Program-made: the position numbers and the translations under genes
Part shown: piece after piece, positions 14,890-26,560 of the stretch
How the letters are laid out: each line of letters begins with the position of its first letter
Position numbering within the stretch: position 1 is the first letter of the stretch
The notes under the pieces: generated by a model
The model's database searches: none
The model's input: only the letters and a program-made list of their open reading frames with translations
Told to the model about the DNA's origin: nothing
Assembly (NCBI GenBank): GCA_947475525.1
Contig: CANJMI010000015.1
Span: 62,001-126,000 of the forward strand
Direction: 5' to 3'
From: Polyangiaceae bacterium
Lineage (GTDB): Bacteria > Myxococcota_A > Polyangia > Polyangiales > Polyangiaceae
Length of the DNA stretch: 64,000 nt

Positions 14890-16413
14890 TCAGAACGTCA
14901 CGTTCGGAGCCGCAGGCCCCTTCTTCGCGGCAGGCTTAATTCCATCCGGAGCTTGGGGCGGGCTCGTGCTGGATGACGCGGAGGTCGTCGAGCCGACGGC
15001 CGAGCCAGCTGGCGCTGCTGTCGTCGATGTCCCTGGTGCGCGGAAGCTCGGCATCGGAGTGCGCATCGTGGCGGGCGCGTTTCCGTCCGAGCGAGGCGTG
15101 CCGTCGAGGTCGATTGGCGTGGCCGCGGTGTCGTCAGGTGCGGTACCCGATGCGCTTTCGCCTGGCGCGGCGATGCCCGGGGTCGAGGTCGATAGGGCGC
15201 TGGTTCGCGCCGTCGCCCCCGCTGCTGTCACGCCGTAGCCACGATTCGGAGCCGTGGAGCGAGTGGGGTCGGTGTCCAGATTCATCACCCATCCGAGCGA
15301 CACGCCGAGGGTGAATGCGACGGCTGACGCGCCGAGCAGCGCGCCTAAGCGAAAGCCCCCCGGACTCGGGTCGCCGTGGGGCAGGTACACCGTCGTGTCC
15401 GTCGACGCGGGTCCGGTCGCCTCGGTGCGCGCGCCCGGAAGCGGCACCGTCACCGCAATGCCTGGCGCTCCAATTCGGTAGGGCTCGGTCGGTGCTACGA
15501 GCGCGCAGATCGCCTTTATCGCGTATTGGGAGTGGGCCGGCGCGAAGTCGCCCAGCTGAACAGCGAAGTCCGCGATGTTCGCGAAGCGCTTGTCCGGGCG
15601 ACGCTGCAAACAGCGGTCGATGGTAGCTTCGAGTCCCTTCGGATAGTTAGGCCGAAGCTTGCGCAGCGGCGTCGGCTCGCCACTCATGATGCGTTGGCAA
15701 ACACCGGGCGCCGTTTCGGCGGCGAAGGGAAGGGACTTGGTCAGCAGCTCGAACAGCGTGACGGCGAGCGACCAAATGTCACTCCGCGCATCGACTTGAG
15801 TCGACGAGAGCATCTGTTCCGGGGACATGTAAAACGGTGAGCCCATGACCGCGCTCGCCTTCGTTACGAGGGAAGCCTCGTCGGGTGCGTCCTGATCGCG
15901 GCTCACCTTTGAGATGCCGAAGTCGAGCACCTTGACGCACGGAGAACCATCGGTCCGCCGCGTGAGAAATAGGTTCGCCGGTTTCAGATCGCGATGCACG
16001 ATCCCGAGTAGATGCGCCTCTGCGATCGCGTGGCAGGCTTGCAATACGTACTCGATGGCGCGCTCGATCGGCAGCGGCCCGTCCGACTTGAGAAGTGCCT
16101 CGAGGTCTTGTCCCTCGAGGTATTCGAGCAGCATGTAGGGAAGCCCGGCGTGCTGCCCGAATCCGTAGATGCGCAACGTGTGCTCGCTGTGGAGCGTCGT
16201 CAGGGTGCGTTGCTCGCGCTCGAACCGTTTGATAACCTCCGTGCGGCGTGCGTTCTCCGATCGGAGGATTTTGATCGCGACTCGGTGGTGCTGCTCGGAA
16301 TGCGCCGCGAGCGCCACGAACGCCATTCCGCCCGTGCCGATTACCCGTTCGACGACGTAGCTCCCGCCGACGACGTCGCCATCCGAGAGCGGACAACCCG
16401 CGTGCGTCGTCAT
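14890..16413 (-). CDS. Membrane-anchored Ser/Thr protein kinase
   Basis: This is a Hanks-type kinase of 507 residues. Glycine loop GTGGMAFV (26-33), catalytic Lys48, HRDLKPAN with Asp142, DFG with Asp164 and the SPEQM activation segment are all present, so it should be active. After the kinase domain (about 18-280) come a linker, a hydrophobic helix near residue 365 and a Thr/Ser/Pro-rich outer tail of about 120 residues with no recognisable sensor fold. The stop codon lies only a few bases from the transposase remnant, so the original tail may have been longer (inference). Upstream lies the 33-bp repeat array. Confidence 0.93.
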   Translation of the reverse strand: MTTHAGCPLSDGDVVGGSYVVERVIGTGGMAFVALAAHSEQHHRVAIKILRSENARRTEVIKRFEREQRTLTTLHSEHTLRIYGFGQHAGLPYMLLEYLEGQDLEALLKSDGPLPIERAIEYVLQACHAIAEAHLLGIVHRDLKPANLFLTRRTDGSPCVKVLDFGISKVSRDQDAPDEASLVTKASAVMGSPFYMSPEQMLSSTQVDARSDIWSLAVTLFELLTKSLPFAAETAPGVCQRIMSGEPTPLRKLRPNYPKGLEATIDRCLQRRPDKRFANIADFAVQLGDFAPAHSQYAIKAICALVAPTEPYRIGAPGIAVTVPLPGARTEATGPASTDTTVYLPHGDPSPGGFRLGALLGASAVAFTLGVSLGWVMNLDTDPTRSTAPNRGYGVTAAGATARTSALSTSTPGIAAPGESASGTAPDDTAATPIDLDGTPRSDGNAPATMRTPMPSFRAPGTSTTAAPAGSAVGSTTSASSSTSPPQAPDGIKPAAKKGPAAPNVTF

Positions 16414-16498
16414 TGTCGATAACCGGCGAAGCCAAGCATCGTCGTTCGACGCGCGGGCTCACTCACCGTGGCGAGAATATTTTCGCCAAAATCCCGCG

Positions 16499-16729
16499 AT
16501 GAGGCGTGAGCCGAAGAGCCCAAAGACCGCGACGAGGCGTGAGCCGAAGAGCCCAAAGACCGCGACGAGGCGTGAGCCGAAGAGCCCAAAGACCGCGATG
16601 ATGCGTAAGCCGAAGAGCCCAAAGACCGCGATGAGGCGTGAGCCGAAGAGCCCAAAGACCGCGATGAGGCGTAAGCCGAAGAGCCCAAAGACCGCGATGA
16701 GGCGTAAGCCGAAGAGCCCAAAGACCCAG
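16499..16729. repeat. Seven-copy 33-bp minisatellite
   Basis: Seven tandem 33-bp units (plus-strand translation MRREPKSPKTA, with R/K and M/T variants) fill most of the 334-bp space between the kinase start and the exbD end. Because the unit is a multiple of three, frames stay open on both strands: Lys/Pro-rich on plus, Ser/Ala-rich on minus. The plus frame runs on antisense into exbD and has no signal of its own, so I treat the array as non-coding variable repeat DNA, possibly affecting the kinase promoter. Confidence 0.9.
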
Positions 16730-16747: not shown

Positions 16748-17482
16748 TCAGCCCTTTTTCCTCATCACGAGGAGGTGGTACTTGCCGAACTCGCTCTGGC
16801 CGAGAGTGTAGAGCACCTCGATCAGCAGTCGGTATGGCGTCGTCGCATCGGCGATGATGATCGCCTCCGAGGTGTTCGACGGCTGTCCCTTCGCGGAACG
16901 CACGGCCTTGTCGATTTTGCGGGCGTTCTCGAGCCGTCGCGCGAGGGGAACAATGTAGAGATCGCTCGGACCGTTGCGCTTGTATTGGGCATCGAGGCCG
17001 TTGGTTGCGAGCTGCTCGCGGGCCGGAAGCCGAACAACGGGATCCGCATCCTCACCCAGTAGGATGGCGCTCTTCGAAATGATGAGAATGACACCCTGGT
17101 CGCTCGGCTCGCCGTTGAGCACCGAGCGAGAAAGACGCATGTCGTCGTTCTCCTGGATCGACGCAGCCGACGAGGCCATGCTCTGCAGAAGGAACACGAG
17201 GATGATCGTCATGAGATCAAGCATCGCCGTGATGTTCAGGTAGTCGATCTCGGGATCTTTCTTCTTCTTCCGGATCTCGCGACGCAGCGCGGCCTTGTAC
17301 TTGGCCATGCTCGCCTTGGGCGCGACCGCGACCGGGCCAACGGACGCGGGTCCCGACGAGCTCGACCCGGCGGCGGCGCTGGAGCCCGCCGGTCTGCCGG
17401 CATCTGCGCGACTCGATGGGGCTGGGGCACGGCTGCTTGCAGGCTCGGACCCGCTACCTGGTCGCTTTTCCTTGTCGCTCAT
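16748..17482 (-). CDS. ExbD/TolR-family protein with long N-terminal extension
   Basis: This is a protein of 244 residues, longer than the usual 135-150. The first 60 residues are Ser/Ala/Pro-rich and cytoplasmic. They are followed by a Lys/Arg-rich stretch, then PEIDYLNITAMLDLMTIILV with the membrane Asp expected to carry protons, and a periplasmic ExbD fold ending in LLVMRKKG. It is the second ExbD of a minus-strand ExbB-ExbD-ExbD cassette, and its ATG overlaps the preceding stop by four bases. Together with an ExbB pentamer it would form a proton-driven motor. TonB is absent nearby. Confidence 0.9.
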   Translation of the reverse strand: MSDKEKRPGSGSEPASSRAPAPSSRADAGRPAGSSAAAGSSSSGPASVGPVAVAPKASMAKYKAALRREIRKKKKDPEIDYLNITAMLDLMTIILVFLLQSMASSAASIQENDDMRLSRSVLNGEPSDQGVILIISKSAILLGEDADPVVRLPAREQLATNGLDAQYKRNGPSDLYIVPLARRLENARKIDKAVRSAKGQPSNTSEAIIIADATTPYRLLIEVLYTLGQSEFGKYHLLVMRKKG

Positions 17483-18051
17483 CGTGCAACACCAAACGCA
17501 ACGTCGGTGAAGAGTTCGCCTTCGGTGTCCCGGCGCAACGCATCAATCGCGTCGATCACATACTGGTAGTCGACGTCGGGGTTGGCCGTGATGGTCACCT
17601 GATTCTCGGTTGCGGCGCGCTCGTTCTTTTTCTTCAGCTCACGGGCGCATCGGGTCAGTTCCTTCGCGTCGTATTTGCCGTCGAGTTTCGGCACCGTGAT
17701 GCCTTGACCGAAGGAGTTGCAACCCGTCGCAAGGTTGCCGTCCGACGTCTTGAGCGAGACGCCCTCTGACGTAATCAGGGCCGTCAGGTTGAGCGCCTTC
17801 GTCTTGATGTCTTGGGTCGCGCGGCCTTTGCCGGGGTCCGGAAGGGTAGGCGGCACGGTGTCGATGGTGCTCATGAACACCACGGACAGCGTACAGATCA
17901 AGAACACCAGGATGTTCATGATGATGTCGAGGTACGGGATGACGTTGAGCTCCCCCGCCTCGTCGCCGGGCGCGGGTTCTTTCGGTGCTGAAAGGCGCCG
18001 AATTCGCGAGCGCTGTGATGCGCTGAGCGGGATGTCGTTCGGATCGGCCAC
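17479..18051 (-). CDS. ExbD/TolR-family protein
   Basis: This is a protein of 190 residues. The cytoplasmic N-terminus is followed by ELNVIPYLDIIMNILVFLI, a single membrane helix with the conserved Asp, and by a periplasmic domain containing NPDVDYQYVIDAIDALR, a common ExbD motif. The start is GTG with GAGAGG upstream. It lies 134 bp after exbB and overlaps the next exbD by ATGA, so the two ExbD proteins are translationally coupled. Confidence 0.92.
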   Translation of the reverse strand: MADPNDIPLSASQRSRIRRLSAPKEPAPGDEAGELNVIPYLDIIMNILVFLICTLSVVFMSTIDTVPPTLPDPGKGRATQDIKTKALNLTALITSEGVSLKTSDGNLATGCNSFGQGITVPKLDGKYDAKELTRCARELKKKNERAATENQVTITANPDVDYQYVIDAIDALRRDTEGELFTDVAFGVAR

Positions 18052-18185
18052 GCTGTGGAGCCTCTCGGGGATGGGTCGGACGACCTACGGTTCGATTCGG
18101 GTGGGGGCGCCGGATTGCTGCCGCACGCTATGTGCAGCAGAAGCCAACGGGCGCTGGGGTGAAGGCCTCATGCGCCGCGATGACC

Positions 18186-18851
18186 TCAGGCTTTCGCTTG
18201 GATGGTCAAAAGATTGAAGAGTCGCTCGCTCGTGCTTTCGAGATCGTGAACGATGGTCTTCGACTTGCTGTGGATGATCACGTGGGTGATCATGCAGAAC
18301 ACGGCGATCGAGAGACCGAAGAACGTGTTGTACATGGCCTCGGCGATGCCGCCGGTAAGCAATGCCTGCTTCTCGGCCTGAGACAGGCTCGACCCCGAGA
18401 TTGCGCCGAACGCGCCGATCAGACCGAACACCGTTCCGACGAGTCCGATCAGCGTCGCGATGTTCGCGAGCGACCAGAGCGCGGGGATGCGGGCTTCGAC
18501 CTTCGGGCGCAAGTCCGAAAGCTTCTCGCTCAGCGCGGCATCGATTTCGTCGGCGCCTTTGTTCGCGTGCGTCAGGCCCGACTTCACGAGCTGAAGAATC
18601 GGATAATCGCTCGCGTCGCAAAGCTTGATCGCACGATCAATGTTGCCATTGACGACGAGCTTCTTGATCTGCGCGAAGAACTCTTTCGAGTTCACGCGGT
18701 ACCTTGTCATCTGGAAGACGGTCCGCTCGATCACGATGGTGACCACGATGACCGACGTTACGACGTTCAATAGAAGGAACGTCGGGTTGTGCTTGATGGC
18801 AGCCAACATGCCGGACTCACCCTCGGCCGCCAACATCATCAGGTGCTGCAT
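18186..18851 (-). CDS. ExbB/TolQ/MotA-family proton channel protein
   Basis: This is a protein of 221 residues with three membrane helices: the first near residues 25-43, and two joined through the signature IATLIGLVGTVFGLIGAF, which includes the conserved Thr and Gly residues of the proton path. The family forms inner-membrane motors with ExbD/TolR partners, here encoded by the next two genes. It is the first gene of a three-gene minus-strand operon and is divergent from a second, paralogous cassette. Confidence 0.93.
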   Translation of the reverse strand: MQHLMMLAAEGESGMLAAIKHNPTFLLLNVVTSVIVVTIVIERTVFQMTRYRVNSKEFFAQIKKLVVNGNIDRAIKLCDASDYPILQLVKSGLTHANKGADEIDAALSEKLSDLRPKVEARIPALWSLANIATLIGLVGTVFGLIGAFGAISGSSLSQAEKQALLTGGIAEAMYNTFFGLSIAVFCMITHVIIHSKSKTIVHDLESTSERLFNLLTIQAKA

Positions 18852-18923
18852 CGCTGTCTCTAGCCTCTCGTCGCCTCAGTTAGGTTCGTTCGGTTGGGTC
18901 GCATGCGACACGCTGAGGTGCGC

Positions 18924-18951
18924 TTGTGACCCAATCGCCGGCGACTATAGC
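18924..18951 (+). promoter_or_regulatory. Possible sigma-70-type promoter in the divergent Exb region
   Basis: TTGTGA, 16 bases, then TATAGC, each box matching four of six consensus bases. It is in the 395-bp space (18852-19246) between the two Exb cassettes, directed at the plus-strand operon but about 295 bases from its start codon. I see no gene in this space. Confidence 0.3.
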
Positions 18952-19246
18952 CGCGCCGGGATTCGATAGGCAAGCCGAGTGACGTCGACCGCGCCGTTCG
19001 CGACCTCGGGGAGCGCTCGCTCGCGCTCGGAATCCGCGCTCGGTGTAAAATTCTACGTGTGCGGTTCTTCGGGTGCGCTTATCGCCCGCGTGGGCGAATC
19101 TGCGCTTGACGAGTCGTATCGGGACTCGCAAAGATGCCGCTGATTCTCGGACGACCCTCGCCGAGGCAACTCGACCGAGGGAACCACATGACACGGCTGG
19201 AGGCTCTGCGGGTCCTAAGGGGACCGGAGCGGAGAGAGGAAAAGCG

Positions 19247-19906
19247 ATGCACGAGTTGTGGACGAATTTTCAGCACGGCGGCAAAATGATGTGGGTGATC
19301 CTCCTATTCGGGATCATCGAGATCGGTTTCATCATCGAGCGTGCCATCTTCTTGTTCGGCGCCGGCGTCGATCGTGAGGCCTTTGCCGAGACGATGCAGA
19401 AATGCATCCTTGGTGGTGACGTTGCTAAGGCGGTCAAGGTCTGCTCCGTGCAGAACGCGCCGATGGCTCGTATCATCCAAGCGGGTCTAGTCAAGGTGAA
19501 CCGCCCGGATGAGGAAGTCCAGGCAGCGATGGACGAGGCGGCGCTTCGTGAGATGCCGCTTATCAACCAGCGCACGGGTTACCTCGCGCTCCTCGCGAAC
19601 CTGTGCATGCTCGCGGGTCTTCTCGGCACGGTGTCCGGCCTCATCGAGGCTTTCGGTGCCGTCTCCGGTAAGTCTGTCGACCCTAGCCAGAAGGCGACCA
19701 TCCTCGCAGGCGGTATCTCGGAGGCCATGAACTGCACGCAGTTCGGGCTCTTCACCGCGATCTACGGGCTCATCGGCTTCGCGATCCTCAACGGTCGCAC
19801 GCAGAAGCTCGAAGACGACATCAACGCGGTGACGGTCCAGGTCGTCAACCTCGTCGTGTCGAACCGCGAGAAGGTCAACGTTCAGGCAGCTGCCAACGCG
19901 GCCTGA
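19247..19906 (+). CDS. ExbB/TolQ/MotA-family proton channel protein (second cassette)
   Basis: This is a protein of 219 residues beginning MHELWTNFQHGGKMMWVIL. GAGAGGA stands before ATG 19247, which is preferred over ATG 19073, where the extra residues are not family-like. The signature NLCMLAGLLGTVSGLIEAF is intact. It heads a plus-strand ExbB-ExbD-ExbD set that mirrors the minus-strand one. The role is to couple proton flow to work in the periplasm or cell envelope; the partner on which it acts is not encoded next to it. Confidence 0.94.
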   Translation: MHELWTNFQHGGKMMWVILLFGIIEIGFIIERAIFLFGAGVDREAFAETMQKCILGGDVAKAVKVCSVQNAPMARIIQAGLVKVNRPDEEVQAAMDEAALREMPLINQRTGYLALLANLCMLAGLLGTVSGLIEAFGAVSGKSVDPSQKATILAGGISEAMNCTQFGLFTAIYGLIGFAILNGRTQKLEDDINAVTVQVVNLVVSNREKVNVQAAANAA

Positions 19907-19944
19907 GCGACTCCTGAATTCCGTAAACCCTTTTCATTCGGTGT

Positions 19945-19965
19945 CACGGGGCGAGTTGCCCCGTG
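19945..19965 (+). other. Perfect hairpin between exbB and exbD
   Basis: An 8-bp perfect stem (CACGGGGC / GCCCCGTG) with a 5-base loop lies between the ExbB and first ExbD genes. No T run follows. It could be an mRNA-stabilising or partial-termination element that sets the ExbB to ExbD ratio (inference). Confidence 0.5.
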
Positions 19966-20014
19966 CACCTTCCATGTGGCGAAGCGATTCGCTCAACGCG
20001 GGTAAGGAGAAGCC

Positions 20015-20569
20015 ATGGGTGGCGTAGACGTCGGACCCACTAACGGCAAGCGGCAGACGAACATCGAGATCAATATGATCCCGTTCATCGATCTGCTGAT
20101 GGTCACCATCATGTTCCTGCTGATCACAGCAGTGTGGGTCAATTTTTCGCGCATGAACGCGAATGCGCAGATCCCAGGACCTCCCGACCCCACGAAGGAG
20201 ATCGATCCGCAGACGCCCGAGAAGGCGCTCAATGTCCACGTAACGGACAACGAGTTCAAGCTCGTGTGGAAGCAAGGAGCGACGGTCGTCAGCGAGACGA
20301 CTTCGGAGCGCCCGAAGGGCACCGGTACCGATCTGCGGTACGATGACCTTGCGACGAAAATCGCGGCTGAGTGGAAGCAGCAGAGCAGCCACCAGGACAA
20401 GAGCGACAAGAAGCAGGATCAAGCGATTCTGCATGTCGACAATCGGCTTCCGTTCAAGGAAGTTATCGCGGTACTCGATGCCATCTACGACTGCAAACGC
20501 GAGATGGTGGTCGAGAACAACGAGGTCAAGTCTTTCCCCGCGTTCAACATGTCCTTCTCGGTAAAGTGA
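20015..20569 (+). CDS. ExbD/TolR-family protein (second cassette)
   Basis: This is a protein of 184 residues. NIEINMIPFIDLLMVTIMFL contains the membrane Asp, and the periplasmic part ends with RLPFKEVIAVLDAIYDCKRE, a typical ExbD segment. A clear AAGGAG lies upstream of the ATG. The central part is Lys/Gln/Asp-rich (QQSSHQDKSDKKQDQ). It is followed 7 bp later by another ExbD gene. Confidence 0.93.
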   Translation: MGGVDVGPTNGKRQTNIEINMIPFIDLLMVTIMFLLITAVWVNFSRMNANAQIPGPPDPTKEIDPQTPEKALNVHVTDNEFKLVWKQGATVVSETTSERPKGTGTDLRYDDLATKIAAEWKQQSSHQDKSDKKQDQAILHVDNRLPFKEVIAVLDAIYDCKREMVVENNEVKSFPAFNMSFSVK

Positions 20570-20576
20570 GGTTCAG

Positions 20577-21179
20577 ATGAGCGGCGGCGGAAGAATCTCC
20601 ATTTTCAAGAAGCAGCACCACCACGATCCTCATTCGCACGCGGTTCACAAACCGGGTCGGCGACTGATGCACGGGGTGCCTCTTCACTTCGTTCACAAAC
20701 GCGTTGCAGGTGGCGGGGGTCGTAACGTCAACGCTCCGCTCAACCTCGTTGCGTTCATCGACTTTCTCATCGTGACCGTCATCTTCTTGTTGATGAGCTT
20801 CTCGGCATCCGGCGAGATCACCGTCGACAAGAGCATTTCGCTTCCGAAGGCGGACAACGTCCAGGACGTCGTTGAGGCTCCGATGGTGGCCGTGAACGGC
20901 AACCAGGTCCTCGTCGATGGGAGTCCGGCCGGCTCGACCCGAGCGATCGAGGATCTCGGCCGCATGCAGAAAGTCGACGAACTCTTCGACTTGCTGAAGC
21001 GGAAGCGCGAACTCTGGAAGAGCTTCCACCCGCAGAAGCCTTTTCCCGGGGTCTGCGTCCTCCAAGTTGACGAAAATGTTCCCTCCCTTGTGGTGAAGAG
21101 CGTTTTCCAGACCGCGGCGTACGCTGGTTATCCCAACGTAAGCTTCATGGTTCGTAAGCGCGGCAAGACGGCCGAGTGA
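20577..21179 (+). CDS. ExbD/TolR-family protein with His-rich N-terminus
   Basis: This is a protein of 200 residues. The cytoplasmic N-terminus is unusually His-rich (KKQHHHDPHSHAVHK and VPLHFVHK). The single membrane helix LNLVAFIDFLIVTVIFLLM carries the conserved Asp, and the protein ends NVSFMVRKRGKTAE, similar to the last ExbD of the minus-strand cassette. The His cluster could bind a metal or simply be a soluble tail. It is the last gene of the plus-strand cassette. Confidence 0.92.
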   Translation: MSGGGRISIFKKQHHHDPHSHAVHKPGRRLMHGVPLHFVHKRVAGGGGRNVNAPLNLVAFIDFLIVTVIFLLMSFSASGEITVDKSISLPKADNVQDVVEAPMVAVNGNQVLVDGSPAGSTRAIEDLGRMQKVDELFDLLKRKRELWKSFHPQKPFPGVCVLQVDENVPSLVVKSVFQTAAYAGYPNVSFMVRKRGKTAE

Positions 21180-21366: not shown

Positions 21367-22410
21367 ATGACGACTTCTGAGCCACCTGTCTCGGGTCCGC
21401 GAATCAAGGGTGATCCCTCGATGCGGGGCCTCCCTACGCTCGCGCGTGCGCGTAAGGAGCGCCGTGCGAGTAGCTCCGCGATCTGGAACTGGCTCGGGCC
21501 GCTCGTCGCGGTCGTGTTGCTGATTTGGTGGCGCGTGGACGCGGTGCGGACAGGCGAGATGCGCGACGGGCTCTTGGCGCGTCAGCGCGAAGTGGCGCAG
21601 CGCCTGGGGCCGAAGTGGTTCCCGCTCCGCGAACGCGTTGAAGCCTGGGCGACCGAGTGCGCGGGTTCCAGTTTTGCGGAGCTGGCGAATCCGACGCTTG
21701 CGAGCACCTGGGATTTTCGCGGCATGCCGGGGATCTACCTTCGGCTCGGGAAGAACAACGCGGGTTCGCGCGAGTCCGTGCGAGCCGCGGCGCAGGTGTC
21801 GCTCCGCGATGGGTTCACCTCGTGCCTCTTCACCGCAGCGAATCCGAGTCCTGTTGTCGGCGCGAAGTGTGAGAGTACGCAGGGGTGTGCGCCAGGCGAG
21901 CAGTGCAACGAGTTCGATCAGTGCGCGGCGCCGTCGCAGCCCTACAATCTCCGCACAGCCTATCGCGTGACGCACGTTCTCACCGATGATTGGCTGACGG
22001 AGATACAGGCAACGCGCGGAGAGCTTGCGTTGCGGACGGCGGCTTCGACCTTCGACACACTCGAAAAGTTCGACCTGCCAATCGCGACTGACTTGGTATC
22101 CAAGGCTGCGTTTTTCATGGTGGTCGTCGATGAGCCTGTCGAAGGGGGCGAACGTGCGGCGGATGGGGCTGTAGCGAGCGGGGGGGCCGAAGAACGCTCG
22201 ATCCCGACCGGGCCTCACCAAGCGCGCGTGTGCCTCTGGCGCGTCGACAGCGGGGAGAAAGTGCTCGCGTTGCGTCGCGAGGCGGCGGGCGAACTGAGGG
22301 GCCGACGACCCCAGTCGGAAGAAGTGTGGCAGGCGCGTCAACGGCAGGCGAACAGCTGCGCGCTCGCGCTCGAAGTGCGGCAAGCCATCGGTGCCGCGCC
22401 CGCTCCCTGA
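21367..22410 (+). CDS. Unknown membrane-anchored protein with Cys motif
   Basis: This is a protein of 347 residues with no family recognised. A basic cytoplasmic head is followed by one membrane helix (about residues 44-56, LGPLVAVVLLIWW). The outer part includes CESTQGCAPGEQCNEFDQC, a Cys-rich motif common in exported myxobacterial proteins. Being co-directional with the Exb cassette, about 190 bp downstream, it might be an accessory of that system, but a terminator-like hairpin separates them. Confidence 0.72.
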   Translation: MTTSEPPVSGPRIKGDPSMRGLPTLARARKERRASSSAIWNWLGPLVAVVLLIWWRVDAVRTGEMRDGLLARQREVAQRLGPKWFPLRERVEAWATECAGSSFAELANPTLASTWDFRGMPGIYLRLGKNNAGSRESVRAAAQVSLRDGFTSCLFTAANPSPVVGAKCESTQGCAPGEQCNEFDQCAAPSQPYNLRTAYRVTHVLTDDWLTEIQATRGELALRTAASTFDTLEKFDLPIATDLVSKAAFFMVVVDEPVEGGERAADGAVASGGAEERSIPTGPHQARVCLWRVDSGEKVLALRREAAGELRGRRPQSEEVWQARQRQANSCALALEVRQAIGAAPAP

Positions 22411-24595: not shown

Positions 24596-26560
24596 TCACT
24601 CGAAGGGGCTTCGAATTTCGTCGCCGCCGGCGGGTCGTGCTGTGCCGCTCGGGCCCGCTCCGGTCGCCGGGCCTGGCGCCGCGCCGGAGGGGAGTCCAAC
24701 GCCGTTCTTCGAAGAAACGGGCGGCCTGGCGGCGGTGGCCGCAGACGGTGACGAAGTGGGGTTGGCCGTGACCTCACTTTCCAGCCTTTCGCTCACGACG
24801 CTTGATGGCTGCGCGACTGCGGAATTGGGCGCACGGCCAGGCGAAGGCGTCGGCTCGACGGAGGGTGCGGCGACGCCTGGTCCGCCGGCACTGCGCGCGT
24901 TGCCTCTGAGTGCGAAAAGCCCGATGCCGCCGCCGAGTAGGAGGAACGTCATGGCCCCGAACGCCAGCGTCCAACGGCTCGTTCGCAAACCGTTTTTTCC
25001 GGTTATGGGCGTCGCCGCGAGCCCGCGATGCGTCGGCGACTCGCCTTGGAGGTGAGGCGGAAATCCGCTCTCGAACGCCGACAACGCGGGGGGGTATTGG
25101 CTCGGCGTCGCAGTCGCGTAGGGACCGCTCGGGTAGGCGCGCGGGTTGTCAACGGGCTGCGAGGCTGACATCGGGTAGTTGCCGGAGATTGGACCGGGCG
25201 GCCTCGATTGCGACACGCGCGGGTCGGGGTAACTTGGGAGCGCGGCGCGCGGGTCGGGGTAACTTGGGAGCGCGGCGCGCGGGTCGGGGTAACTTGGGAG
25301 CGCGGCGCGCGGGTCGGGGTAACTTGGGAGCGCGGCCCGCGGCTCGGGGTAACTCGGCAACGGCTGAGGTGCATGTCGGAGCTCGGGGAGCGTCCCGGCG
25401 GGTCGGGCGAGGGCCCCGCGCGGTACAACAAGTGGCGTCGGATCCCCTGATTTCGGCTCGTTCGTGTCCGGGCTCACGGAGTCCGGAGCCGCGGGGGTCC
25501 CATCGACATTCAGTCGGGCCAGGGGCGTATCGATGCGCGTTGGCGTCGCTTGGCGTTCGCGCGTGGGCCGTGTTGGCGGGCTTGGGTCGGTGGGCAACGT
25601 CCGGCTCTGGCGCAGTTCATCTGGAATGGAGCGAATCGCCGCGGCCAGGTCCGTCATCGACTGGAATCGGTCGATGGCGCGTTTCTCGAGGCAACGGAGG
25701 ATCAGGCGCTCGGTCGTCGCGTCCATCTCGGCCAGTTGGCTTGGAAGCTGAGGCTTCTCGGTGAGGTGGCGTGTGAGCACGCCCATCGCGGTGTCGGCGA
25801 CGAAGGGCAGTTTGCCCGTGAAGGCGCGGTACATCATCACGCCGAGTGCGTAGATGTCGCTTCGATGATCGAGCACGTCACCGCGGGCCTGCTCGGGCGA
25901 CATGTAATACGGCGTTCCGAGAATGATTCCGGTCTCCGTCAGATCGGTCGCGTCTTTCTGCATGATTTTCGCGATGCCGAAGTCGACGAGCTTCACGAAG
26001 TACGGGTCCCCCTCATCGTGCACAAGCACGACGTTGTCGGGCTTCATGTCGCGATGGACGATGTGTTGGTCGTGCGCCTTCTGGAGCGTCTCGGCGATCT
26101 GAACGAAGATGTGTTTCAACTCGCGGCGGCCGAGGTTCAGCTCGCGGAGGACTCGCGTCAGGCTCATCCCGTCGAGGAGCTCCATGACGATGTAGAAGGA
26201 GCCGTTGGGCATCTGCCCGAAATCCATCATCTCGCAGATGTGCCGGCTCTGAACCGCGTTGGCCGCTTGAGCCTCGCGAATGAAGCGCTGGAGGACCTCC
26301 TCGCTCCGTTCGATGCCGCTACGAAGCACCTTCATCGCGAAGGTCTTGCCGACGATCACCTGGCGGCACGCGTAGACCGTGCCCATGCCTCCGCGACCCA
26401 CAATGCGCTCGACGCGATAACGGCCGTGGATCACCTGACCGATGAGATCTTGAGCGGCGCCGATAGCTCCGGTTTCGAGCTTCACGAGCGAAACGGCGTC
26501 GGTACGGCAGACCTCCTCGTCGTCGCCGTACTCCCGCGAGCACGCCGGGCAGATCTTCAC
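24596..26560 (-). CDS. Ser/Thr protein kinase with N-terminal zinc ribbon and proline repeats
   Basis: This is a protein of 654 residues. The N-terminus CPACSREYGDDEEVC looks like half of a zinc ribbon. The kinase domain (about 47-315) has GRGGMG (55-60), Lys77, HRDMKPDN with Asp171, DFG with Asp193 and a SPEQA segment, so it should be active. Then comes a Pro-rich section with five copies of LPSYPDPRAA, a membrane helix near residue 545 and a short outer tail. The start is GTG. It is followed by the TPR protein gene on the same strand, its likely partner or substrate. Confidence 0.93.
   Translation of the reverse strand: MKICPACSREYGDDEEVCRTDAVSLVKLETGAIGAAQDLIGQVIHGRYRVERIVGRGGMGTVYACRQVIVGKTFAMKVLRSGIERSEEVLQRFIREAQAANAVQSRHICEMMDFGQMPNGSFYIVMELLDGMSLTRVLRELNLGRRELKHIFVQIAETLQKAHDQHIVHRDMKPDNVVLVHDEGDPYFVKLVDFGIAKIMQKDATDLTETGIILGTPYYMSPEQARGDVLDHRSDIYALGVMMYRAFTGKLPFVADTAMGVLTRHLTEKPQLPSQLAEMDATTERLILRCLEKRAIDRFQSMTDLAAAIRSIPDELRQSRTLPTDPSPPTRPTRERQATPTRIDTPLARLNVDGTPAAPDSVSPDTNEPKSGDPTPLVVPRGALARPAGTLPELRHAPQPLPSYPEPRAALPSYPDPRAALPSYPDPRAALPSYPDPRAALPSYPDPRVSQSRPPGPISGNYPMSASQPVDNPRAYPSGPYATATPSQYPPALSAFESGFPPHLQGESPTHRGLAATPITGKNGLRTSRWTLAFGAMTFLLLGGGIGLFALRGNARSAGGPGVAAPSVEPTPSPGRAPNSAVAQPSSVVSERLESEVTANPTSSPSAATAARPPVSSKNGVGLPSGAAPGPATGAGPSGTARPAGGDEIRSPFE
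25217..25366 (-). repeat. Five tandem 30-bp in-frame repeats
   Basis: Four almost identical 30-bp units and one diverged unit encode LPSYPDPRAA in the juxtamembrane linker of the kinase. The near identity at DNA level means recent expansion. Confidence 0.92.

Follow-up and report, generated by a model that had tools for sequence, protein, structure and literature searches.

A conserved back-to-back pair of putative Agl-type motor cassettes in a Polyangiaceae genome

Two complete sets of Agl motor genes, AglRQS and MXAN_3003-5, are reported for Myxococcus xanthus, and the kind of system described here is thus already known. Whether the two D-type subunits of AglRQS, AglQ and AglS, form homodimers or a heterodimer is stated as open in a review of such motors (PMC9389320). 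Here, we analyzed a stretch of 64,000 nucleotides from a Polyangiaceae bacterium (the window; assembly GCA_947475525.1, contig CANJMI010000015.1, positions 62,001 to 126,000 of the forward strand), in which two trios, each of one TolQ/ExbB-type and two TolR/ExbD-type genes, stand back to back and are accompanied by a conserved seventh gene, X. Judged by sequence, the locus very probably encodes two Agl-type motors. Our overall reading, which we regard as probable, is that these are two paralogous motors of the Agl kind plus X, each probably working with a dedicated Glt-type machine whose genes lie elsewhere in the genome. Neither joined cassettes nor X were found described in the literature searched, which was mostly open-access.

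Each trio consists of one MotA/TolQ/ExbB gene (B) and two ExbD/TolR genes (Da and Db) in the order B-D-D (Table 1). A first-pass annotation, made from the sequence alone, had described two divergent ExbB-ExbD-ExbD cassettes across a gap of 395 base pairs (bp) without TonB, and its coordinates, gap, subunit types and absence of tonB from the cassettes were all borne out; nor was a TonB gene present among the ten window proteins scanned by Pfam. All six motor proteins scored above the Pfam cut-offs, B1 and B2 for MotA_ExbB and the four D proteins for ExbD (33.3-47.2 bits). The NCBIfam models tolQ, exbB and tolR matched far below their cut-offs, with 54 and 62 bits for tolQ (cut-off 221) and 37 and 33 bits for exbB (cut-off 206) in the two B proteins, which are thus not recognized as TolQ or ExbB equivalogs. 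The trio proteins are therefore family members and not certified Tol or Ton proteins. The channel residues, namely the Thr of transmembrane helix 2 (TM2) and the Glu and Thr of TM3, are all kept in B1 and B2, as is the transmembrane (TM) Asp in all four D proteins. The D1a and D1b genes overlap by 4 bp, and the B2 open reading frame (ORF) reaches further 5', up to a start at 19073. The intergenic region presumably holds the promoters of both cassettes; one sigma-70-like site was found in it, no more than shuffled sequences give.

Table 1. Features of the motor locus and its flanks (positions in the window; aa, amino acids).
Feature	Position	Strand	Description	Pfam match	Tree clade
D1b	16748-17482	-	second ExbD/TolR-type subunit, cassette 1, 244 aa, TM Asp present	ExbD, 38.3 bits	DbII
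D1a	17479-18051	-	first ExbD/TolR-type subunit, cassette 1, 190 aa, TM Asp present	ExbD, 43 bits	DaII
B1	18186-18851	-	ExbB/TolQ-type channel subunit, cassette 1, 221 aa	MotA_ExbB, 83.9 bits	II (B tree)
Divergent intergenic region	18852-19246		exactly 395 bp between the B1 and B2 start codons		
B2	19247-19906	+	ExbB/TolQ-type channel subunit, cassette 2, 219 aa from ATG	MotA_ExbB, 80.5 bits	I
D2a	20015-20569	+	first ExbD/TolR-type subunit, cassette 2, 184 aa, TM Asp present	ExbD, 47.2 bits	DaI
D2b	20577-21179	+	second ExbD/TolR-type subunit, cassette 2, 200 aa, TM Asp present	ExbD, 33.3 bits	DbI
D2b N-terminus	20577-20740	+	His-rich, basic extension ahead of the TM helix		
X	21367-22410	+	conserved seventh gene, 347 aa, 3' of D2b; model pLDDT 89.5		
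Flanking ORF	14890-16413	-	ORF flanking the locus	Pkinase	
Tandem array	16494-16726		33-bp unit, 7.1 copies, 96% matches, just past the D1b 3' end		
Flanking ORF	24596-26560	-	ORF on the other flank, protein kinase-like by eye		

The search with B2 returned 116 relatives in other genomes, and the best 80 loci were kept; Sorangium, Polyangium and Minicystis were among the organisms and none was titled Myxococcus. From these three genera the order of the window was taken as Polyangiales. Neighbouring ORFs were chosen by a GC-by-codon-position score, with some neighbours missed or spurious. The back-to-back B1/B2 pair was present in 67 of the best 80 loci; at ten the contig ends upstream of B2, and at three (L028, L036 and L062) the pair was absent despite sufficient room. 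The recurrence in 67 related loci argues that the arrangement is not due to chance. Among a further 30 best loci of the same order, 27 had a B1-type gene divergent beside B2, the remaining three being L092 (contig end), L097 (genome G035) and L103 (genome G088); L062 occupies the same places as G035, so that one genome was counted twice. Of 152 genomes from the order, 143 have a B1 match with an E-value of at most 1e-45. The joined pair, mostly with X behind it, is thus the usual arrangement there.

The exceptions are of several kinds. The L028 and L036 genomes carry cassette 1 elsewhere, with no X beside it, and cassettes 1 and 2 lie apart in G413/G414, while in four genomes from other orders of the class (G045, G075, G084 and G154) they are on different contigs. 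Genomes G035 and G088 (rated 98 and 100% complete) keep cassette 2 and X, but no cassette 1 was found in either. An extra ExbD-type gene was seen near the locus in three relatives, after 12065-13219 in L054, after 12159-13310 in L069 and beyond cassette 1 in L214.

Three trees were calculated: a B tree of 127 rows (six of them TolQ/ExbB-type outgroup), a D tree of 218 rows (two outgroup), and a concatenated tree of 86 of the 108 cassettes, from which 22, mostly near-duplicates, were omitted by hand. The rows from the order were hand-picked subsets, taken from 19 loci for the B tree and 16 for the D tree, the window included in both. In the B tree, the 121 trio-type rows formed one group (Shimodaira-Hasegawa-like approximate likelihood ratio test, SH-aLRT, 99) apart from the six TolQ/ExbB-type rows. 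This group split into clade I with B2 (support 89) and clade II with B1 (90), both values lying below the program's star of 95. In the D tree, DaI, DaII, DbI and DbII were single clades of 47, 61, 47 and 61 rows (support 98, 91, 97 and 84), none of them misplaced, and all Da (96) as well as all Db (93) formed one clade each. Clade I held together again in the concatenated tree (support 100), and outside the order cassettes of clades I and II were seen separately. Since these clades each cohere, the trees point to an ancient duplication of the whole trio, in which B, Da and Db were doubled together at a time preceding the divergence of many sampled families. The duplication proposed in the first-pass annotation is therefore real, though not local: a recent tandem origin was rejected, as the cassettes fall in two old clades, and the alike C-terminal ends (VMRKKG and VRKRG) that had been cited in its support are not kept in the relatives viewed.

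The TolQR- and ExbBD-type proteins of the same genome lay outside the trio group in both the B and the D tree, with few outgroup rows in each (six and two). The trees hold no named Myxococcus sequence, and TIGR02269, a Myxococcus-paralogue family, gave no match over its cut-off in any of 371 genomes of the phylum. Tandem B-B-D-D operons, with two channel genes ahead of the D genes, were seen at L122, L124, L126 and L127 (families f29 and f45). Both of their B proteins belong to clade I and none to clade II, and the extra B keeps the channel residues; the D genes of L127 are cut by the contig end. Such operons may encode either two alternative channels or a single motor containing both B types.

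To place the trios among the motors of the organism, the whole genome was surveyed, giving five MotA_ExbB and six ExbD matches. Beyond the window trios, these proteins belong to a Pal-TolQ-TolR-TolA-like locus, an ExbBD-like pair and MotA, and the two trios are the only B-D-D sets found. The search for Glt/Agl homologues elsewhere that had been suggested at first pass was productive, with Glt-type clusters on contigs C3 and C12 and, on C17, a GltJ-like protein whose residues 1-82 match GltJ at 45 bits. The C3 cluster has the usual order, with no motor genes between gltF and gltG. It comprises GltC (834 aa, 53 bits), GltD (1491 aa), GltE (477 aa, 91 bits), a GltF-like protein (96 aa), a short GltG without FHA domain (505 aa, 82 bits), members of the neighbour families c6 and c1, and a Wza/SLBB protein. 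The C12 cluster, likewise without a motor, encodes GltC (598 aa, 254 bits), GltD (1263 aa), GltE (518 aa, 44 bits), a 90-aa ORF in the place of gltF that matched no family, an FHA-type GltG (682 aa, 288 bits), a tetratricopeptide repeat (TPR) protein and a giant TPR protein, the last likened to GltI and read from two stretches that overlap in the same frame and, by coordinates, span about 3,870 aa. In genomes G102 and G358, the Glt cluster also lacks motor genes at the usual motor place. Two Glt-type clusters without a linked motor and only two B-D-D sets, both of them in the window, suggest that each motor has its own machine. The AgmX/PglI tail domain (NF033768) has eleven matches in this 5.2-Mb genome, seven of them over the cut-off and two in one protein, on contigs C12, C7, C17, C5, C3, C24, C8 and C27. 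Tail proteins of the GltG/GltJ kind thus outnumber the motors, which may accordingly be shared.

Outside the order, the motor genes themselves are often found within a cluster of this type. The neighbour clustering covered all 82 single-cassette loci together with the window and 26 further loci of the order. Beyond the order, clade II loci are frequently embedded in a cluster of the families c7, c3, c2, c5, [B-D-D], c0, c6, c1 and c8, which, from lengths and the NCBIfam and Pfam matches of scanned members, point to gltC, gltD, gltE, gltF, the motor, gltG, c6, c1 and a Wza/SLBB exporter. For comparison, the M. xanthus proteins GltD, GltE, GltF and GltG are given as 1191, 471, 89 and 640 aa long (PMC3169522). 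No clear family was assigned to c6 or c1, the latter having only a sub-threshold porin match in one relative. Of 49 clade II loci outside the order, 31 had at least three of the six Glt-core families no more than about five genes away, versus none of 33 clade I loci. A GltG-type protein was nearby in 31/49 and 11/33 loci, respectively. Of the five such proteins scanned near clade I cassettes, two (L130 and L133) have an FHA domain and three (L131, L139 and L143) a hydrophobic start by eye, while a sixth, at L127, has neither. Several of the GltG-type tails beside these relatives gave weak matches to the TonB_C model, and M. xanthus GltG is described as carrying a TonB_C-like tail as well (PMC3169522).

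We further compared the putative proton site of the motors. Both D subunits have the TM Asp in every one of the 47 clade I cassettes and of the 14 aligned clade II cassettes from the order. Among the remaining 47 of clade II, Db kept it throughout, while Da had Asp in only ten, with Asn (29), Ser (4), Ala (2) or Gly (2) instead in the rest. Overall, Db retains the TM Asp in all 61 clade II cassettes and Da lacks it in 37 of them. B has its TM3 Glu in 24, exactly those with the Da Asp (24 with both, 37 with neither, none mixed). The 31 core-linked cassettes are all Asp-less, and L170, L162 and L169 are Asp-less examples from outside the order. On the concatenated tree this coupling requires only two changes, and a single clade of Asp-less motors was not rejected (approximately unbiased test, p-AU 0.087). 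The coupling thus reflects few events, and its Fisher value is not independent evidence. As a Da homodimer would have no proton site in the Asp-less lineages, a Da-Db heterodimer is favoured and is probably the form of the D subunits. Neither an Asp-less Da family nor motor-less Glt clusters turned up in the literature searched, the search not being aimed at these two.

Gene X was found in 72 of the 80 best loci, in all 72 directly behind a D gene and on the same strand, and is thus tied to cassette 2; six of the eight loci without it end at or near the cassette, and L028 and L036 have room for it. The alignment comprised 63 of the 72 relatives and the window (64 sequences). The AlphaFold model calculated from it (predicted local distance difference test score, pLDDT, as in Table 1) shows a helix of residues 23-98, which includes a hydrophobic N-terminal stretch, followed by a mixed globular domain. 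Cys153 and Cys331 are invariant in all 64 sequences, in keeping with a periplasmic place. The Pfam scan of X matched no family, including no TonB_C-type tail, and profile comparison (hhalign) with the GltG family and nine other neighbour families gave probabilities of 1% or less. TonB- and TolA-like transducers are described as having a conserved His in the TM helix (PMC12204202), and in X a His occurs at any one of residues 24-62 in at most seven of the 64 orthologues. A transducer role of this type was therefore rejected, X having no GltG profile similarity, no TonB_C tail and no conserved His in its hydrophobic stretch. By fold, the best Foldseek hit had an E-value of 0.069. VIA-align gave Z-scores of 3.2-4.4 for chains of PelC, CsgG, LptE and TolB and at most 5.2 for Cj1090c (107 residues, root mean square deviation 4.0), all too weak to name a fold; PelC, CsgG, LptE and TolB are periplasmic or outer-membrane proteins. 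We propose that X would be an inner-membrane-anchored accessory or anchoring part of motor 2.

Which motor works with which machine was approached through the two genomes that lack cassette 1. G035 and G088 also lack c1 and the C3-type GltG, for which only weak paralogue matches were obtained (best 4.2e-10 and 6.7e-13), while it was found at 1.2e-55 or better in the other eight of ten genomes searched, the source genome included. Both keep a C12-type cluster with a long GltG (L225 and L226), its FHA domain being verified in G035. G358, from the same genus, has cassette 1 and both Glt clusters. The joint absence of cassette 1 and C3-type genes, with cassette 2 and the C12 cluster kept, suggests that cassette 1 belongs with the C3 system, which we consider moderately likely, and cassette 2 with the C12 system, for which we put the chances at about even.

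Several observations weigh against this pairing and against the overall reading. The joint absence is a single event in one genus. Among the 152 genomes of the order, nine lack B1 (E 1e-45), 13 lack c1 (1e-10) and two lack both, versus about 0.8 expected. Seven genomes have c1 present and B1 absent, including G168 (rated 100% complete, 290 contigs), some of which may be assembly gaps. Conversely, eleven have B1 present and c1 absent, and the three checked (G026, G134 and G163) hold a C3-type GltG, so that c1 was probably missed there through divergence. All 31 core-linked clade II motors lack the Da Asp and the B Glu, unlike cassette 1, which is therefore a relative and not a demonstrated like-for-like replacement. 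The Glt homologues of the source genome all score under the NCBIfam equivalog cut-offs (GltC 450, GltG 650) and are homologues, not certified equivalogs. In M. xanthus, AglRQS alone is reported to serve both Glt and Nfs, and a two-hybrid test reportedly showed no binding of MXAN_3003 to either GltG or NfsG (PMC3858216); a separate motor for each machine is therefore no rule. Finally, gliding of the source organism is predicted only by analogy.

The most serious alternative, although we consider it unlikely, is that a single motor powers both of the Glt-type machines, in the manner of AglRQS, and that the second motor has an unrelated task, perhaps via X as its own output protein. The example of AglRQS driving both Glt and Nfs, the reported lack of effect of an MXAN_3004 deletion on motility or spores (PMC3169522, PMC3858216), the excess of AgmX/PglI-tail proteins over motors and the tie of X to cassette 2 all fit such a division. 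Against it, one lineage lacks both cassette 1 and the C3-type genes but retains the other set, and X has neither the TonB_C-type tail (Pfam) nor the conserved His in its hydrophobic stretch. The first-pass annotation had left the choice between two motors and one hetero-oligomeric motor, in which B1 and B2 would mix in the pentamer, up to four D proteins would share it and X would be the output rod. The first of these fits the data; the second is improbable. The six genes do stand together in 67/80 loci, mostly with X, and the four tandem B-B-D-D operons make two-B motors conceivable, but the B proteins of those operons are both of clade I, and each cassette alone is a full trio. Moreover, cassette 2 persists without cassette 1 in G035 and G088, and the two cassettes are separated in G413/G414 and occupy different contigs in the four genomes of other orders.

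It is very improbable that the trios are ordinary energizers of the TonB or Tol type to which D subunits were added. Their best NCBIfam matches are indeed tolQ and exbB, but with scores far below the cut-offs, and the genome has its own Tol-Pal locus and ExbBD-like pair, both outside the trio group in the trees. The likeness to the Agl make-up suggested at first pass holds, as the trios group with B-D-D motors that elsewhere adjoin Agl/Glt-type genes. Trees and linked tonB genes had been named there as the means of refutation; the trios stand apart from the organism's own Tol/Exb-type proteins and no tonB lies in the cassettes, although the GltG-type neighbours of relatives outside the order do have a TonB_C-like tail.

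The preferred reading thus remains that of two Agl-type motors, each with a Glt-type machine of its own. For proton flow, the 5:2 make-up, the heterodimer, the motor-machine pairing and the biological output, we infer the following mechanism from these comparisons. In each motor a pentamer of B would surround a D dimer, probably Da-Db, with X as an inner-membrane-anchored companion, and protons passing the D Asp would rotate B relative to D, according to the workings described for 5:2 motors (PMC9389320). Cassette 1 would drive the C3 machine (GltC, GltD, GltE, GltF-like protein, short GltG without FHA, c6, c1 and the Wza/SLBB polysaccharide exporter), and cassette 2 the C12 machine (GltC, GltD, GltE, FHA-type GltG and the giant GltI-like TPR protein). 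GltG-type proteins would pass the work to outer-membrane parts and surface polysaccharide, as described for Agl-Glt/Nfs (PMC3169522, PMC3858216); the Wza/SLBB gene in the C3 system fits a polysaccharide cargo. By analogy with Myxococcus, the motors would use proton flow to pull on GltG-type proteins and thereby move adhesion complexes or surface polysaccharide, in gliding or in coat or slime handling.

Some side observations and a rejected candidate concern the locus itself. The PG(R/K)RLM motif of the D2b extension is also present in both orthologues viewed (L011 and L072). The 33-bp array sits between cassette 1 and the Ser/Thr kinase gene. A role in defence was rejected, since PADLOC models (E 0.001) matched 0 families for B1, B2, D2b and X, and thus gave no assignment to ZorAB of Zorya defence.

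More speculatively, and with somewhat less than even confidence, Agl-type motors may be obligate Da-Db heterodimers that split into a two-proton-site form (clade I, cassette 1 and its nearest relatives) and a one-proton-site form. In the window, a single divergent control region would then join two motors of the two-site form, each dedicated to another Glt-type machine, and X would be a component of motor 2 that is specific to the order. For the second Agl-type motor, MXAN_3003-5, the locus offers a concrete role hypothesis, in which each motor has a Glt-type machine to itself, that of motor 1 including a polysaccharide exporter. The relatives with an Asp-less Da bear on the homo- or heterodimer question, for which a heterodimer is the simple reading, and X is a new candidate component of motility-type machinery throughout an order of bacteria with large genomes.

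Compared with known systems, the trios share Pfam families and channel residues with TolQR and ExbBD, which differ in having a single D gene and TolA or TonB as a partner and from which the trios group apart. The two D genes per cassette and the lack of a linked TonB do not correspond to ExbBD-TonB, nor does a genome with a separate Pal-TolQ-TolR-TolA-like locus leave the trios as its TolQR. With the Nfs/Glt core complex (GltC, GltD, GltE and GltG with AglRQS) there is the likeness that clade II motors outside the order lie inside such a cluster (31/49) and that the source genome has one on C3; the difference is that its clusters, and those of G102 and G358, have no motor genes at the usual motor place. 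MXAN_3003-5 (cluster M2) is a second Agl set in M. xanthus, so that two sets per genome are known, but it is a cluster apart from aglRQS, and deletion of MXAN_3004 had no motility or spore effect as reported (PMC3169522, PMC3858216). Among the closest known systems is AglRQS of M. xanthus (MXAN_6862-60), which likewise has one TolQ/ExbB-type and two TolR/ExbD-type genes in a row, outside the glt clusters, in a genome with Glt-type proteins, and a conserved TM Asp in both D subunits, AglQ and AglS, according to PMC9389320. Like it, each window operon has one B and two different D genes, a TM Asp in all D proteins, a place apart from TolQR/ExbBD, and Glt/Nfs-type machinery with a GltG-type protein in the same genome. 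In M. xanthus one motor serves two machines, whereas the window, which we liken to AglRQS by make-up and context, holds two paralogous trios back to back together with X.

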